Origin: Acidobacteriota bacterium
GTDB taxonomy: Bacteria > Acidobacteriota > Terriglobia > Acidiferrales > UBA7541
Direction of reading: 5' to 3'
Assembly (NCBI GenBank): GCA_003225315.1
Contig: QHZD01000017.1
Coordinates: 62,001 to 126,000, forward strand
Length of the DNA: 64,000 bases
The notes under the pieces were generated by a model that made no database searches, was not told the origin of the DNA, and worked only from the letters and a program-made list of their open reading frames with translations. Shown here piece after piece: positions 17,708 to 40,215 of the stretch (position 1 is its first letter; each line of letters opens with the position of its first letter). Position numbers and translations under genes: made by a program.

Positions 17708-20371
17708 CTAGTGTTGCGGCCGGTGCTGGTCCTTCTGCCGGTCTGACTTCCGTTCCGATTCTCTGTCCGACTTGCGGTCCGAGTCTCGATCCGAGTCCCG
17801 GTCCCAGCGCGGTCTCGTCCCATTTGTTGTCTGGCTCCCCACCGAAACCTGGGCCGAAGCCGAGCTCTGGTTGCCGGAGGCATCCCGAGCCATATAGGTG
17901 ACGGTGTAGATGCGGCCAGTTCCCATTCCGGAGCGCTCTGCGCGCAAGAGGAACGACCGCACATCCGTCCCGAACGGGATTGGTCCGCCGCCTATTGCCT
18001 GGATGTCACTCGGCTGATCTCCATCGCCCAGGCCTTCGTCTGGCTCATTGCTGGTAATCGACACAAGAGCGACCGTCGGATTCGCATCGCAACTGTCGTT
18101 TGCATTGACTGTTGCATTGATTTGCATCAGCCTGTGGTTCGGCGGCCAGAGAGCGTTCGGAGACAACGCAACGTGCAGGGAAGGCGCGGTCGTGTCTCGA
18201 ACAGTTACGTGCGTTGTCGCCATGGAGCTGAGGCCCCCCGTGTCAGTGACGGTCAATGTAAACGTGTGCGTACCCATCGCCGGTGTCAACTGAACAACGG
18301 CCGTGGTACCTACCACACTGCCCGACTCATTCTTCCAAACGAAGCTGAGCGCATCACCGTCGGGATCGCTGGACTTAGACCCGTCCAATATCACACGCAT
18401 GCCCTGCCCTGTGCATTCCAGGGTTTGGTCAGCGCTTGCGATTGCGACTGGCGGGTGGTTTACCGCCACTACCGTGACGACTGTGCCAGCCGTGGAACTG
18501 AGGCCTCCGGGATCGGTGACCGTCAGCGTAAAGGTGTGCGCGCCCACCGGCAGCGTCAACTGAACAACGGCCGTGGTGCCTACCACATTGCCCGCCCCAT
18601 CTTTCCAGACAGAGCTGAGCACATCTCCGTCGGGATCGCTGGACTTGGATCCATCCAATTGCACGGATGTCCCGCCCGGTCCGGTGGCGTTAACCGTTTG
18701 GTTCGGACCGGCGTTTGCCATTGGCGGGTGGTTTACTGCCACTACAGTGATAACGGTGCTCGCCATGGAACTGAGGCCCCCTGGATCGGTGACCGTCAGC
18801 GTAAATGTGTGCATGCCCACCGGCAGCGTCAACTGAACAACGGCCGTGGTGCCCACCACATTGCCCGCCTCATCCTTCCAAACAAAGCTGAGCACATCCT
18901 GGTCAGGATCGCTGGACTTGGATCCGTCCAACTGCACGGATGTCCCGCCTGGGCCGGTGGAGTCAACCGTTTGGTCCATACCTGCGTCGGCCACTGGCGG
19001 ACGATTGGTCACTATGTTACCCGTCATTCGGCTGAAAAGGATTTGTGACACGCCGGGCGTGCTGTCCTGCCAGGCCACGTTAATGTCGCCGCTCTTGTCC
19101 GCAGCGATCTGTGCGGCCGTAGATAGGCCCGAGTTGTTGGAAAGGTTGAGCGGCACGGAAAGAAACGTCGCGCCTGAATCTGTCGAACGGGTGAAGAGGA
19201 TGTCGCGATTGCCTGGAGTGGTGTCTTCCCAAGCCACGTTGATATTGGCGCCGGCATCGACAGTTAGCCATGCGTTGGAAGAAGACCCTGTGTTATGCGA
19301 CAGATTCTGCGCGCTGGAGAACGTCGCGCCCGCATCGCCCGAACGAACGAAGTAGATGTCTGCGGGACTGCTTTCTTCCCAAACGACGTTAATGTTGCCC
19401 GCGGCATCCACAAAGAGTTGTGGGCTCCCAGATGAGCCAGGAGTCCCGGACAGATTCTTAGGGGACGAGAAGGTCGTGCCGTTATCTACCGAACGGCTGA
19501 GGAAAATGTCGAAATTGCCTCCGCAATCGTTCGACCAGACTACGTTGATATTGGCGCCAAGATCTACACCGATCCTCGGACTGTTGGAGTTAGCAATACA
19601 ATTACCAAGCGGGTTTGAGAGATTCACGGGTGGCGAGAAGGTCGTGCCATTATCAGTCGAGCGGCTGAAGGAAATGTCCGAGTGGCTGGCAATATCATCT
19701 TCCCAAACCACGTTGATGTTGCCGCTCTTATCCACGGCGATTTGCGGACCCATCGACCCGCTAGGGTTGGTTGACACCATCTTCGGCGCCGAAAACGTAT
19801 TCCCTCCGTCGCTCGAGCCGCTGAACCAGACGGCGAGATTGCCAGTGTCGCTCTCCCAGACGACGTTGATGTTGCCTGCCGTATCCACGGCGATCTGTGG
19901 AACGGAAAACAAAGCAGTGTTCATTGTCGCGGAGAGATTCGTTGGCGCGGAGAAAGTCATGCCCCCATCGGATGAGCGGCTGAAAAAGATATTGGAGGTA
20001 CCAAAACTGCAGTCGGGACTGTCCTCCCACACTATATTGATGTTGGCGCCCGCGTCCACGGCCATGACCGGACTGAAGGAGCATCCCAGGCTATTGGAGA
20101 CCTGCTTTGCCGCCGGGGTCGGAAGGAAGGTCGCTCCCCCATCGGTAGAATGGCTGAACAGGATGTTAGAGTTGTTGGCAGTGTCATCCTCCCAAGCCAT
20201 GTAGATGTTCCCAGCAGCATCCACGGCGATCTGCGGGGTGAATGAATAATCCGCATTGTTCGACACATTCTTCGGCGTGGAAAACTGTTGCGACCGTGCA
20301 GGACTGCACAGTACTGACAATCCGAGCATCAAAATTGCGGCGGTGTGACCCCAACGCTTGGAGTAAACCAT
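17708..20371 (-). CDS. Large secreted sialidase-like (BNR/Asp-box) protein with three PKD-type repeats
   Basis: 887 residues. The start is fixed by AAGGAGG 6 nt before the ATG at 20371. A signal peptide ends near ARSQQ (residue 29). Residues about 30-460 contain nine to ten propeller repeats of about 48 residues with cores such as GNINVVWED and DISFSRSTDNGTTFSPP, the Asp-box style of sialidases. The Arg triad of true sialidases is not evident, so binding rather than hydrolysis is likely. Three near-identical PKD/REJ domains of about 91 residues follow (RPPVADAGMDQTV... and HPPMANAGPNQTV...). Next is a beta domain beginning DTTAPSLHVALSPNALWPP and a 35-residue tail rich in DRDSDRKSD. It is probably a cell-surface or extracellular protein. 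Confidence 0.8.
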   Translation of the reverse strand: MVYSKRWGHTAAILMLGLSVLCSPARSQQFSTPKNVSNNADYSFTPQIAVDAAGNIYMAWEDDTANNSNILFSHSTDGGATFLPTPAAKQVSNSLGCSFSPVMAVDAGANINIVWEDSPDCSFGTSNIFFSRSSDGGMTFSAPTNLSATMNTALFSVPQIAVDTAGNINVVWESDTGNLAVWFSGSSDGGNTFSAPKMVSTNPSGSMGPQIAVDKSGNINVVWEDDIASHSDISFSRSTDNGTTFSPPVNLSNPLGNCIANSNSPRIGVDLGANINVVWSNDCGGNFDIFLSRSVDNGTTFSSPKNLSGTPGSSGSPQLFVDAAGNINVVWEESSPADIYFVRSGDAGATFSSAQNLSHNTGSSSNAWLTVDAGANINVAWEDTTPGNRDILFTRSTDSGATFLSVPLNLSNNSGLSTAAQIAADKSGDINVAWQDSTPGVSQILFSRMTGNIVTNRPPVADAGMDQTVDSTGPGGTSVQLDGSKSSDPDQDVLSFVWKDEAGNVVGTTAVVQLTLPVGMHTFTLTVTDPGGLSSMASTVITVVAVNHPPMANAGPNQTVNATGPGGTSVQLDGSKSSDPDGDVLSSVWKDGAGNVVGTTAVVQLTLPVGAHTFTLTVTDPGGLSSTAGTVVTVVAVNHPPVAIASADQTLECTGQGMRVILDGSKSSDPDGDALSFVWKNESGSVVGTTAVVQLTPAMGTHTFTLTVTDTGGLSSMATTHVTVRDTTAPSLHVALSPNALWPPNHRLMQINATVNANDSCDANPTVALVSITSNEPDEGLGDGDQPSDIQAIGGGPIPFGTDVRSFLLRAERSGMGTGRIYTVTYMARDASGNQSSASAQVSVGSQTTNGTRPRWDRDSDRDSDRKSDRESERKSDRQKDQHRPQH
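18215..18990. repeat. Three tandem copies of a ~270-273-bp unit encoding PKD domains
   Basis: The words CTGAACAACGGCCGTGGT, CGGGATCGCTGGACTTGGA and GGCGGGTGGTTTAC recur at about 270-273-bp spacing. The middle and right copies are the closest. This is in-frame domain duplication inside the secreted protein, not a mobile element. It could recombine and change domain number. Confidence 0.85.
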
Positions 20372-20742
20372 GGCTGGCCTCCTTGTCGGCGAGCGGCGAC
20401 CTAAACGGGCGACACAGACACCAATCCGACCATCGGAATGCAAGAGAAATTGCCCCTGGCCAGCCCTGCGGGGAACTTCTGAACTGGCCCTTCTGTGGGG
20501 CTACTTTGGATAGGCTCGCCCTCCCAGCCCAGGGAGAAACGAGCGTGATTTCTACACTCAGTATACAGAAATGGGGACGAATGAAAAGGGAAAACAGGTT
20601 GGCTATGTGTCTATTCAGCCAATAGAGTCTCCGGTTCGCTCCCGCGGGATACTCGCTCCAAGTAAGGCCTATCGTTTCAAAGTAAGCCCTTTAAAATGAA
20701 TGTCTTAAAAACACCGCGGCATCACCTTATTTCAATTCTTCC

Positions 20743-20770
20743 TTGAATTTTCTTTGCTGTGTGGTATACT
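20743..20770 (+). promoter_or_regulatory. Promoter-like site upstream of repeat element copy A
   Basis: TTGAAT (20743-20748), a 16-nt spacer and TATACT (20765-20770) read toward the repeat element. No gene follows on this strand for more than 1.5 kb, so a non-coding transcript is the simplest product if the site is active. Confidence 0.5.
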
Positions 20771-20842
20771 AGCTTTTAGGTAATTCCGTGCACCGCGTCG
20801 GTTCCGACCTTTCCAGTCACCAAGCATATTTGATCTAAGCCG

Positions 20843-21000
20843 TTTAGAATCAACACTTGTGAAAGAGTCCGATGGAACTCAGTGTAACCCCTTTCAGAAT
20901 CAACACTTATGGATGTGCCCCGTAAGTGTTGATTCTAAACCACTTACTTAGACTCTAAGTCCTTTAGATGCAACACTTACAAAAAACATAGAGCGGGTGG
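20843..21000 (+). repeat. Composite repeat element, copy A (possible structured RNA)
   Basis: Four copies of a ~20-bp unit (consensus CCTTTAGAATCAACACTTAC) lie in the order forward (20843-20859), forward (20892-20909), inverted (20923-20939), forward with tail (20958-21000). Units two and three make a perfect 14-bp hairpin (AGAATCAACACTTA/TAAGTGTTGATTCT) with a 13-nt loop. The last unit, with GATGC in place of GAATC, and its tail (ACAAAAAACATAGAG then CGGGTGG) recur almost unchanged in copy B at 39362-39404. Confidence 0.8.
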
Positions 21001-21048
21001 GGTTGTTATGGTTAACCAGATACCGCGATAAACCGTGCCTTACCCGAC

Positions 21049-37356: not shown

Positions 37357-39234
37357 TTAGTGCATGACCGGCAAAACTACGTGCGAAGGCATCGCCGGTG
37401 AACAATAAATCCGCTGCGTCGCGGAAGTGAAGTCGGACGCAACTGCTTTGTAAATACTGGGCACAAATTTTTGCGGATTTCGGTCAATCAAGGGGAACCA
37501 TGTGGACTGAATCTGCACCATGATGCGATGCCCTTTCAGAAAAACGTGATCGTGGTCGCGCAGGGGAACATTCCATTCGAGCGGTTGATTTGGCGCAAGT
37601 GCGTGCGGAGTCTCAAAACTTTGCAGATAGCGGCCGCGCCGCACTTCCATGGCGATCGGCAATTCGTATCCGTTCAGGGATTGCGCGAACTGGCCGGGCT
37701 TGGGGCCGTCTTCGGGAGCCCAACTATTTTTCTGCGCATTGTCGGGATAAACGTCGATGAGCTTCACCACGAAATCGCTGTCTGTTCCGGAGGTGGAAGC
37801 GAACAACGCGGCCGCCAACGGTCCGGTAACGGTGATGTCATGATCCAGTGGCGCGCTCACGAATGACAAAACATCGGGACGGCCATCCACAAAACGCTGG
37901 TCAGCCGCTTCCCAGGTGCGCCAATCCCCTGCTGGATATGTTGGCGAAATGGGCCGCTGCCGGTACGGCACGGGATTGGCGGGATCGGAAACATATTCGC
38001 GATAGGCTTTCGCGCTTTCCGCGGCGGTGGGGGCTGTGAAGGAAAGCGTGCCATCGGCGTGCAAATATAAATTTGTCGGTTGAGCTTCTTTCGGCGGCCA
38101 AACCGCGTAAGTGTGCCAACTATTCGAGCCACTCTGAAACGTGCTGGCTTGCCACTTCGGCTTCTCGCCTTTGCCGTGCAAGTAGTAACCGAAAAAGGGC
38201 GCCTCGATGTTTTCGCGGAACTCGCGCGCCGTTTCATGTCCCGCAAACGGAATCAGGCCGATGCTGTCCGCTTTCGGCGTTTGCCACTGGCCGTGAAACC
38301 ACGGACCGGCAATCATAAAATTCGTGTGGTCGGGATCGTGTTCTTCTGCGTGGCGAAAAATCTGCCACGGTCCCCAGGGATCTTCCTGATCCCAGAATCC
38401 AGCTACGTTCAAGTTCGGAACTGTGGAAGCGTGAAGTTGCCGCACCCACGCCTCTTTTTTCCAGAACTCGTCGTAGTCCGGATGATCGATTGTGGAATTC
38501 CAATAAGGAATTTTGCCGTGAAGGTATTTCGCGTTGATATTCGAGAGCGGGCCCAAATCCAGATACCACTGATAGGTGTCGTAAGTCTCGAATTCAAAGT
38601 GGGTGTTGGAGTTTTTGTCGGCTTGCTCCATCACCGCATATTCAAAGTTGTAGCTTTCGCGGAGCGCGCCGTAGCGGTGATCGTCATCATTCATCCACTG
38701 ATCGACGGGCGAAGCTTGTTCGCTCATGGCCTTCAGCGCGGGATGCGGATGCAGCAGCGCCAGCGCGGTGGTCAGGCCGTCGTAGGAGACTCCGTACATC
38801 CCCACTTTGCCGCTGTTGTTGGGGACGTTTTTCACCAGCCACTCGATGCTGTCGTACGCGTCGGTCGTTTCGTTGGTGGACTTCGGGTTCGTCAGATCCA
38901 CATGGGAAGTCAGGTCGAACACGCCTTCGGACTTGAAGCGGCCGCGCAGATTTTGGATGACGAAAATGTAGCCATCCTGAGCAAGCTCTTTCCAGGACGC
39001 CGGCATCTGCTGTGGCGGATTTTCGGGAACGCCGTACGGAGTGCGCCGAAAAAGAATCGGGAGCGGTCCATGCTGATCGGCCGGTGTCAGGATCACCGTT
39101 TGCAGCTTCACGCCATCGCGCATTGGAATCATCACTTCTTGCAGCTTGAAAATCGGCTGGCTCGCGGGCTCTTGCGCCTGCGCGGGAATCGCCAGCAATC
39201 CTGCAAGAATGGCAAGCACTACTGTTGAGCGCAC
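37357..39234 (-). CDS. Secreted CocE/NonD-family hydrolase
   Basis: 625 residues. A signal peptide ends near PAQAQ (residue 20). The alpha/beta-hydrolase domain has the nucleophile elbow VGMYGVSYDGLTTAL (Ser near residue 150) and the opening MIPMRDGVKLQTVILTP. The C-terminal jelly-roll domain (from about 430, WRTWEAADQRFVDGRPDVL) is the X-Pro dipeptidyl-peptidase/CocE type. It hydrolyses esters or amides, perhaps acyl-capped substrates, in the periplasm or outside. Its upstream region carries repeat element copy B. Confidence 0.88.
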   Translation of the reverse strand: MRSTVVLAILAGLLAIPAQAQEPASQPIFKLQEVMIPMRDGVKLQTVILTPADQHGPLPILFRRTPYGVPENPPQQMPASWKELAQDGYIFVIQNLRGRFKSEGVFDLTSHVDLTNPKSTNETTDAYDSIEWLVKNVPNNSGKVGMYGVSYDGLTTALALLHPHPALKAMSEQASPVDQWMNDDDHRYGALRESYNFEYAVMEQADKNSNTHFEFETYDTYQWYLDLGPLSNINAKYLHGKIPYWNSTIDHPDYDEFWKKEAWVRQLHASTVPNLNVAGFWDQEDPWGPWQIFRHAEEHDPDHTNFMIAGPWFHGQWQTPKADSIGLIPFAGHETAREFRENIEAPFFGYYLHGKGEKPKWQASTFQSGSNSWHTYAVWPPKEAQPTNLYLHADGTLSFTAPTAAESAKAYREYVSDPANPVPYRQRPISPTYPAGDWRTWEAADQRFVDGRPDVLSFVSAPLDHDITVTGPLAAALFASTSGTDSDFVVKLIDVYPDNAQKNSWAPEDGPKPGQFAQSLNGYELPIAMEVRRGRYLQSFETPHALAPNQPLEWNVPLRDHDHVFLKGHRIMVQIQSTWFPLIDRNPQKFVPSIYKAVASDFTSATQRIYCSPAMPSHVVLPVMH

Positions 39235-39361
39235 GGGGTTTCCTCCACTCCATTCTTTCTAATCAATTGAATATCGCCGCGCGAGTATACCAGCAGACTC
39301 TTCGCTGGAGGCCAAGACGCCTCGAGCCTGGGACTTGTGGTAGACGCCTGAAAGCTTAGGG

Positions 39362-39540
39362 CCCACCCCCTGTGGTTTTTGTAAATGTTGCATCTAAAGG
39401 ACTTAAGTATTTCGCAAGTTCTTTGTTTGCAACACATAGGAGGGGCCTCATAGGTGTTGCATCTAAAGGACTTAGACTGCACCAAAATTGTGCAAGATTC
39501 ACCCCATGTTTCTGTGTTGCGGACGTCCTTTCTAAATGGG
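39362..39540 (-). repeat. Composite repeat element, copy B (possible structured RNA)
   Basis: Read on the minus strand, the unit order matches copy A: a degenerate forward unit with a tail-like end (39532-39498), a forward unit (39476-39454), an inverted unit (39440-39426) and a forward unit with tail (39404-39362). Units two and three pair through TGCAACAC/GTGTTGCA plus GAGG/CCTC. The tail AACCACAGGGGGTGGG matches copy A's tail closely, and TGTTGCATCTAAAGGACTTA is shared by both loci. Confidence 0.8.
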
Positions 39541-39618
39541 TTGCCTGATGACGCATAACTGCGAAAGGACCGCAGAAGGCTTGGAAGCGGGCGGGTTGTA
39601 GCGTCGAGTTCAAAAAAG

Positions 39619-39647
39619 ATAGTAGTATGAAATTCAGCAGATGTCAA
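39619..39647 (-). promoter_or_regulatory. Strong promoter upstream of repeat element copy B
   Basis: On the minus strand TTGACA (39647-39642), a 17-nt spacer and TACTAT (39624-39619) read into copy B. The start point would be near 39612. The transcript would either be a separate RNA or give the secreted-hydrolase mRNA a leader of about 380 nt. Confidence 0.6.
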
Positions 39648-39769
39648 GTTATTCTTTGTGTACCATTCGGACGGAGCGGGAAGATGTTGAAACCTTGAAA
39701 GTTAAGAGGTTTCAAGGTTGAAGGGGGATACTCCGCCTGTGGGCTCCATAGAGAGGCCCGAGGCTGGAG

Positions 39770-39994
39770 TCATAGGAGTTTCTCCAAGTCCTCGGTACTT
39801 ATTCCCGCATCCCGCATGATGCTTTTCAGAACCTTGGGGTGAAGAACTCTTGCAGCGTGAAATGGGACAGTGGCGCGCTTGCCTTCGGCATTCTTATAAA
39901 TCATGTGGCTGCCACTCTGACGCGTGATTGAAAACCCGAGCTTTTCGAGTACTGAACAGATTTCGCGCGCAGTAAGGCGTGGAAGCTTGGGCAT
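39770..39994 (-). CDS. hicA: HicA-type mRNA interferase toxin
   Basis: 74 residues. LTAREICSVLEKLGFSITRQ followed by SGSHMIYKNAEGKRATVPFH (catalytic His in the GSH motif) and the LHPKVLKSIMRDAGISTEDL end are the HicA double-stranded-RNA-binding fold. It cleaves mRNA when unbound. Its ATG shares one base with the hicB stop (TGATG). Confidence 0.93.
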   Translation of the reverse strand: MPKLPRLTAREICSVLEKLGFSITRQSGSHMIYKNAEGKRATVPFHAARVLHPKVLKSIMRDAGISTEDLEKLL

Positions 39995-40215
39995 CAGACA
40001 GCAATTTCAACGGTAGACAGGCTCACGGAAACTTGAGGAATCTCTTCGCCGTCCGCCAATCGGTCTGCAATGTGCAGCTTAATGGCGTCCTTGATGTTCT
40101 CTACAGCTTCCTCGTACGTATCGCCTTGGCTGTAGCAGCCTTGGAGCGTGGGGCAGGAAACGAAAAAGCCATCGGAATCCGCTTCGACGATGATGGGAAG
40201 AGTAATGTTCTTCAT
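39994..40215 (-). CDS. hicB: HicB-type antitoxin
   Basis: 73 residues. The partial RNase-H fold core PIIVEADSDGFFVSCPTLQG and the segment CYSQGDTYEEAVENIKDAIK define HicB. It lacks a C-terminal DNA-binding domain (the end is EEIPQVSVSLSTVEIAV), so it is the short, non-ribbon form and autoregulation may be absent or weak. A TATAAT box (40226-40231, minus strand) ends 10 nt before the ATG, with no Shine-Dalgarno between. The antitoxin-first order is the less usual one for HicAB. Confidence 0.9.
   Translation of the reverse strand: MKNITLPIIVEADSDGFFVSCPTLQGCYSQGDTYEEAVENIKDAIKLHIADRLADGEEIPQVSVSLSTVEIAV

Follow-up and report, generated by a model that had tools for sequence, protein, structure and literature searches.

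A dispersed hairpin element of Acidobacteria with gene order broken almost only on its promoter side

In integron cassettes, a promoter precedes genes that are exchangeable and mostly co-oriented and that have a hairpin (attC) at their 3′ end, and the R″ and R′ boxes of attC read RYYYAAC and GTTRRRY. Smaller repeats are also relevant here. Correia elements and other promoter-bearing MITEs are described as small, mostly intergenic, multicopy sequences with sigma-70-like promoters and inverted repeats (PMC10969869). BOX elements of Streptococcus pneumoniae are composite repeats of modular build, in which one part varies and RNA stem-loops are predicted (PMC3049150). REP, BIME and REPIN sequences combine forward and inverted short hairpin units in families restricted to species groups, and the study that describes them also reports a RAYT group from Acidobacteria (PMC3733652).

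We analyzed a window of 64,000 nucleotides (G000:C1:62001–126000) from a 4.98 Mb draft genome of an Acidobacteriota bacterium (G000) and found two copies, A and B, of a composite element that resembles each of these systems in part. The element has small size, dispersal, built-in sigma-70-like promoters and inverted repeats in common with Correia elements and MITEs (PMC10969869); unlike them, it has no common terminal inverted repeats and no target duplication that we could find, the breaks in gene order beside it are one-sided, and its core has three units. The likeness to BOX elements, compared by description and not by sequence, lies in the modular composite build, the variable part and the predicted stem-loops (PMC3049150), but many copies of our element have their own promoter and mark a border between accessory and native DNA. 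Alternating forward and inverted hairpin units and a group-restricted family recall REP and BIME sequences (PMC3733652), whereas the element is a fixed 118-nt three-unit core with a tail, and the GTAG/CGTC tag beside the hairpin that belongs to the REP definition in that study is not conserved in our 35-copy alignment. By analogy, the element may be likened to an integron cassette in its arrangement of a promoter, exchangeable and mostly co-oriented genes, and a hairpin that closes their 3′ end; unlike cassettes, its copies are dispersed and not arrayed. No R″/R′ boxes were seen by eye in the copy alignment. The integron integrase model TIGR02249 gave sub-threshold matches only, in all 36 genomes of the genus and in all 14 control genomes, and we reject integron membership because no integrase exceeded the cut-off in any of the 36.

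Membership in the RAYT/REP system was rejected as well, because copy-rich genomes lack any Y1 transposase and the counts of IS200-type transposases are unrelated to copy number. Genome G006 has 35 secure copies and no such transposase and G050 has no secure copies and 15 transposases; Y1_Tnp had no match in G006 or in G041, which has nine secure copies. Among the 5′-side proteins of other genomes, 3 of 94 are Y1_Tnp. A REP-type tyrosine transposase gene of 182 aa lies directly 5′ of one core copy (L280:1588–2684, G000:C34), and an IS200-type fragment lies beside another core (L281); these neighbors are not decisive, because copy-rich genomes without a Y1 transposase exist.

Copy B is on the minus strand. 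Its whole core spans 39475–39359 (positions 1–118 of our R1 covariance model, 107 bits, E=9.9e-28), and the core of copy A spans 20885–21002 on the plus strand (111 bits). These are the two strong matches of the window; three weaker ones are two opposite-strand hairpin echoes and one marginal match at 20780–20882. The sequence TAAGTCCTTTAGATGCAACA occurs exactly three times, at 39386–39405 (−), 39455–39474 (−) and, in copy A, 20956–20975 (+), versus 0 expected from 100 shuffles. Read along the minus strand, copy B begins with a −35 box, TTGACA (39642–39647), and, after a 17-nt spacer, a −10 box, TACTAT (39619–39624), as the initial annotation had proposed; the promoter scan places the −35 box at offset −247 from the F2 unit, and such promoters are enriched family-wide. 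The orthologue of copy B in the related genome G013 has an identical −35 box and a TGCTAGTATC-like −10 box. There follow a degenerate, interrupted forward unit, F0 (CATTTAGAAAGGACGTCCGCAACACAG; 39512–39544, limits approximate), and, directly upstream of F1, a small palindromic box TTGCACAATTTTGGTGCA (39478–39495), which is also present in copies L014 and L041 and in a varied form in L032. The forward unit F1 (39449–39475) is the 5′ arm of the hairpin, delimited by sequence, alignment and the R1 model; the inverted unit R (39416–39439, plus strand) is its 3′ arm, delimited by sequence, alignment and a pairing test. The forward unit F2 with its A-rich tail (TAAGTCCTTTAGATGCAACATTTACAAAAACC; 39374–39405, minus strand) is marked out by constraint in orthologues, and the G-rich end of the tail (39359–39373, minus strand) by the R1 match. 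In copy A, the promoter scan finds TTGAAT (20743–20748) and TATACT (20765–20770) on the plus strand, 16 nt apart.

The order of units (degenerate forward, F1, R, F2 with tail) is the same in both copies, in agreement with the initial annotation. Its description of the two tails as nearly identical is right for the stretch TGCAACAyTTACAAAAAmC and the presence of a G-rich run after it, but the run itself differs. Copies A and B are not special: both are members of a family of 42 full copies in G000. Upstream of the copy A promoter, at 20680–20719, there is a degenerate stretch resembling F2 plus tail (AAGTAAGCCCTTTAAAATGAATGTCTTAAAAACACCGCGG), which suggests older elements in tandem. The window also contains three 273-nt imperfect direct repeats (18131–18946) and seven 62-nt ones (19053–20236), probably internal repeats of a large protein gene.

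A 16-base probe allowing one mismatch gave 43 matches in G000 and 0 for a reversed control. Of 36 loci fetched for probe matches, one (L030) was dropped as a chance match, and the other 35 are true copies that align over ~118 nt, where column identity averages 75%. At E≤1e-8, the R1 model finds 42 copies in G000, 40 in G014, 39 in G013, 38 in G023, 35 in G006, 30 in G008, 25 in G024, 12 in G044, 10 in G012, 9 each in G041 and G011, 7 in G045, and one to three in nine further genomes; 15 have none, and secure copies are thus present in 21 of the 36 genomes of the genus. Of the full copies in G000, 41 have E-values below 1e-21 and the last has 2.5e-9; the remaining matches there are mainly opposite-strand echoes, along with some nine weaker separate places. 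At the looser level of E≤0.001, which includes opposite-strand hairpin echoes, G000 has 70 matches and 30 of 36 genomes are matched, counts that are too high because the hairpin weakly matches R1 on the opposite strand. The weaker separate matches in G000 include C1:226388, C29:340788, C31:1370, C31:83649, C42:31410 and C47:375, among others; four of them have the same variant tail, ACACTTATGAAAAACAGGGGGAGGG, as a sister subfamily with a shorter core.

Under stricter filters, with few candidates scored per genome, R1 had no match in 296 other genomes of the phylum. An exact pattern of the element occurs in 49 stretches of named genomes, all of them Acidobacteria MAGs placed by their labels (16 labelled gp2, one gp1). 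The family has so far been seen in one group of Acidobacteria only. Rfam 15 covariance models gave no match at gathering thresholds over the whole window, and at E≤5 over 39200–39800 a single miRNA model on the other strand, with E=0.85 and 18 bits where the cut-off is 61. Literature searches, judged from their result listings, showed nothing on such an element in Acidobacteria, and the element is apparently undescribed.

The core of the element, ~118 nt long, is made up of the F1:R hairpin, F2 and the A/G-rich tail. It is usually preceded by a promoter and, between the two, a leader that varies among copies and measures roughly 100–300 nt. F1 and R pair in 76.9% of alignment cells versus 30–39% in slid versions, with 15 and 14 compensatory cells at two neighboring base pairs. 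Two core subtypes differ at those same two pairs, and the independent compensatory events are few because they amount mainly to one two-base switch between the subtypes. The F1:R structure was named by the analyst; RNAalifold alone gave 4 pairs. The pairing pattern marks F1:R as a genuine hairpin, whether of RNA or of single-stranded DNA. Conserved structure with compensatory changes, the hallmark sought in a functional RNA, is present, and this signal is compatible with a hairpin of either kind. F2 is the most uniform unit across the alignment of 35 copies. A short conserved peptide in the core was ruled out by eye on the alignment, where frame and length vary.

Strong sigma-70-like promoter scores between −340 and −170 were found in 20 of 37 G000 copies versus 4 of 111 control windows taken from the reverse strand and the 3′ flank (p=4e-11). 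The promoters fall into a few families, several of which have TTCCTTGACT...CTGGTATACTA followed by a TTAGGTAAA-like start. Terminator-like hairpins stand in the leader, before the core, in 10 of 37 copies, compared with 2 on the leader reverse strand and 4 and 1 in the 3′ flank, and between the core and +120 in 6 of 38 only. Pairwise alignments reach 180 nt or more in 20 of 511 cases, the common part running from about −78/−95 to +40/+62 around F2, and subfamilies with a leader in common exist (for example L126/L148, L132/L133 and L122/L123). A few copies begin with half-R units, we saw no terminal inverted repeats that the copies share, and some copies have degenerate extra tails upstream. 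GC-rich palindromes of the GATCCCGACCCGGTCGGGA type recur in the leaders of L131, L145, L146, L141 and L155; they may belong to a distinct REP-like family that occupies these gaps.

We measured constraint in 15 of the 26 G000/G013 orthologous pairs, chosen for homology through the element, counting gaps as differences. Against a baseline divergence of 10.3% (leader) and 10.5% (3′ flank), F2 diverges more slowly (4.4%, p=3.5e-5; 95.6% identity versus 89.5–89.7% around it), as does F1 (6.2%, p=0.005). The promoter hexamers diverge by 4.5% (p=0.014), a difference that is lost on correction for five tests, and R shows no significant constraint (8.6%, p=0.27). These rates suggest selection on F2 and F1, with a weaker indication for the promoter. 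With gaps counted, the G run exceeds the baseline in divergence (17.8%, p=5e-4); its bases are not individually preserved.

The strongest pattern in the data is that gene order is broken almost only on the promoter side. The comparison rests on draft assemblies and covers 38 G000 loci (L119–L156) with flanks up to 2 kb, that is, all but four of the 42 copies (C2:42917, C26:765, C34:157587 and C45:22679 are omitted from the context and break analyses). We paired 26 loci with G013 orthologues (L123 and L135 were added later). For the 26, we traced homology away from the core in both directions, bridging gaps shorter than 120 nt, and set aside two 5′ pairs and one 3′ pair near contig ends. Homology stopped within 600 nt 5′ of the core in 17 of the 24 pairs that could be evaluated, and 3′ of it in one of 25 (Fisher p=8e-7). 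The 5′ breaks comprise six at the core edge (−71 to −102), ten at −203 to −449, none of them nearer the core than the −35 box or more than 135 nt beyond it, and a single one at −559. The later orthologues, L135 (break at −70) and L123 (−246), are likewise broken 5′ and intact 3′. In 9 of the 26 pairs, there is no 5′ break or the side is not scorable. The expectation of a conserved repeat with a promoter reading into it and non-conserved neighbors is therefore borne out, with the promoter enrichment given above.

Single loci illustrate the replacement. At L124, G013 and G000 have the same flanks, but the core of G013, the closer relative, is of the other subtype, whereas the more distant G041 aligns with G000 throughout; the element was therefore replaced on the lineage of G013. 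At L134, a common terminator hairpin and a common tail bracket four contents: G000 has a 174-aa ORF and G013 other short DNA, while the short spacers of G041 and a named MAG (QHZB) are related to each other; in G041, a foreign module also lies inside the core. At least 28 of the 38 copies are at the same place in G013; the core is therefore not visibly mobile now. We found no clean empty site or target duplication at 16 G041 sites (at three, G041 also has the element or what is left of it), and no clean empty site at four G013-matched sites, two sharing the element and two not, because leader and intergenic DNA is replaced and not simply absent. The end of G000:C40 (L128) and the start of G000:C33 (L143) have 140 nt in common at 99% identity, IS-end-like and beside core copies; the assembly therefore breaks there.

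The two sides also differ in composition. GC content is lower 5′ than 3′ in 27 of 34 G000 loci (p=1e-4), 22 of 29 in G013 (p=0.001) and 16 of 21 in other genomes (p=0.008), and the nearest 5′ gene is in the sense orientation in 25 of 35 G000 cases and 27 of 39 in other genomes. Many 3′ Pfam families, among the first 25 of 92 that our family tables cover, are housekeeping (aconitase, FolD, gyrase, primase, pantoate ligase). The 5′ side has HicA, a C5 methylase, Argonaute, a type II restriction enzyme and Vsr, and also ordinary genes such as gatB. At copy B, HicA (PF07927; 39770–39994, minus strand) lies directly 5′ of the element together with the preceding ORF (39994–40215, minus strand), which we take to be HicB-like. 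Accessory genes lie outside the promoter at L154 and L125 and directly before the core at L134 and L142, and the slot is therefore not one fixed place. Gene calls in the context analysis were simple ORF picks and not those of a trained gene finder. In G000, PADLOC matched 55 families among 75 5′-side proteins and 42 among 69 3′-side proteins, the latter read as housekeeping homologues, and only 7 families in 94 5′-side proteins of other genomes. With matches on both sides and few in other genomes, “accessory” is a safer word than “defence”, and we claim neither a defence function nor a 5′ defence enrichment.

Our tentative reading, to which we give somewhat less than an even chance, is that the element is a long-lived boundary or docking module beside exchangeable DNA. 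It builds on the family and its anatomy, the promoter enrichment, the hairpin, the slower divergence of F2 and F1, the one-sided breaks and the composition. The module would run from an outer edge through a sigma-70 promoter and a leader, with a terminator-like hairpin in part of the copies, to the ~118-nt core. The core and the 3′ gene would stay put and the 5′ DNA, either accessory genes or the leader itself, would be replaced repeatedly, with joints at the 5′ edge of the core or near or outside the promoter. The core may serve as a recombination partner, in homologous exchange between dispersed copies or for an enzyme that recognizes the F units or the hairpin. Homologous recombination between dispersed cores would be the simplest route and would need no new enzyme; a dedicated recombinase or an enzyme acting on single-stranded DNA hairpins is a possible alternative. 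The promoter would make an RNA that takes part in the exchange or serves the docked genes. The search for an enzyme of the module, which covered the integron integrase and IS200-type transposases, identified none.

Two other explanations take in much of the same evidence. The copies may be paralogous genes for small RNAs that act in trans, every one of them with promoter, leader, F1:R and F2, and the change of neighbors would then be incidental, because small-RNA genes sit in gaps where foreign DNA lands. The promoter enrichment (20 of 37 versus 4 of 111), the compensatory changes in F1:R, the slower divergence of F2 and F1 and the long persistence at orthologous places all agree with such genes. 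We consider this reading rather unlikely, given that there is no Rfam match, that terminator-like sites are few between the core and +120 and lie more often in the leader before the core, that outside some subfamilies the core alone aligns between copies, and that the one-sided breaks are left unexplained. A decaying non-autonomous transposon of MITE or BIME type, spread by a transposase and lying beside accessory DNA by chance, would account for the copy number, the dispersal and restriction to one genus, the inverted units and half-R units, the degenerate upstream tails and the subfamilies with a common leader. It is unlikely in our view: common terminal inverted repeats and target duplication were not seen, the number of IS200-type transposases does not track copy number (35 secure copies and 0 transposases in G006, 0 and 15 in G050), and slower divergence of F2 in orthologues is unexpected for dead copies.

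The initial annotation had also suggested that copy B might be a cis-acting 5′ leader of the secreted hydrolase behind it (625 aa, 37357–39234, minus strand), probably the single Peptidase_S15 match of the downstream genes, which were scanned as a set. Its distance estimate of about 130 nt holds, with a GTG start at 39234, ~125 nt past the tail; the promoter does point toward the gene, and the sequence leaves read-through into it possible. Between element and gene, however, the hydrolase has its own extended −10 box (TGGTATACT, TATACT; 39284–39289, minus strand). Hydrolase orthologues in G041, G015, G017 and G048 are 89–93% identical; R1 has no match at E≤1 at these loci (266 nt only in the G048 contig), and the TATACT box is kept there at a similar distance from the start codon. 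The synteny comparison with relatives that lack the element thus speaks against a leader role, as does the strand of the nearest 3′ gene, which is not consistently sense (17 sense and 21 antisense among 38 G000 copies, 24 and 14 in other genomes). Judged from these sequences, the element does not appear to control the hydrolase, and the leader reading, which we hold to be very improbable, fails. In G013, where the hydrolase orthologue is 95% identical, the element is present and the HicA-containing pair of G000 is absent.

Returning to the boundary module, the genus would, if that reading is right, maintain dozens of permanent sites, often behind a promoter of their own, alongside which accessory genes are exchanged, toxin–antitoxin, Argonaute and restriction–modification genes among them, and the native gene opposite would be untouched. 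Gene gain would then be organized independently of integrons, tRNA sites and phage attachment sites, in a phylum whose genetics has received little study. A bolder form, which we regard as quite improbable, is a chromosomal docking platform of a novel type, in which promoter, exchangeable slot and fixed hairpin core would jointly take up foreign genes, retain them and perhaps express them at some forty places in each genome, by a predicted recombinase or RNA-guided step that reads F2; it would work without an integron integrase, tRNA attachment sites or IS ends, and part of its copies would have an attenuator-like terminator. Even as a plain repeat family, this is a well-bounded element with a sharp and testable asymmetry.

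Other repeats lie near the copies. In G041, a second module of ~130 nt (AGGGTCGAAA..., with GGGCCGG...GGCCC near its end), for which Rfam gave no match, stands directly upstream of the shared tail at L211, L213 and L224, just upstream of ACACTTA...GGGGG. At L213, it comes after the CACTTA of an F1 unit, as if inserted into the core. A dispersed repeat, TACTTACAAACCCTGAGCAAACG, is found in the 3′ flank of L152 (~+390 to +425 from F2) and on C59, C74, C123 and C171 of G013.
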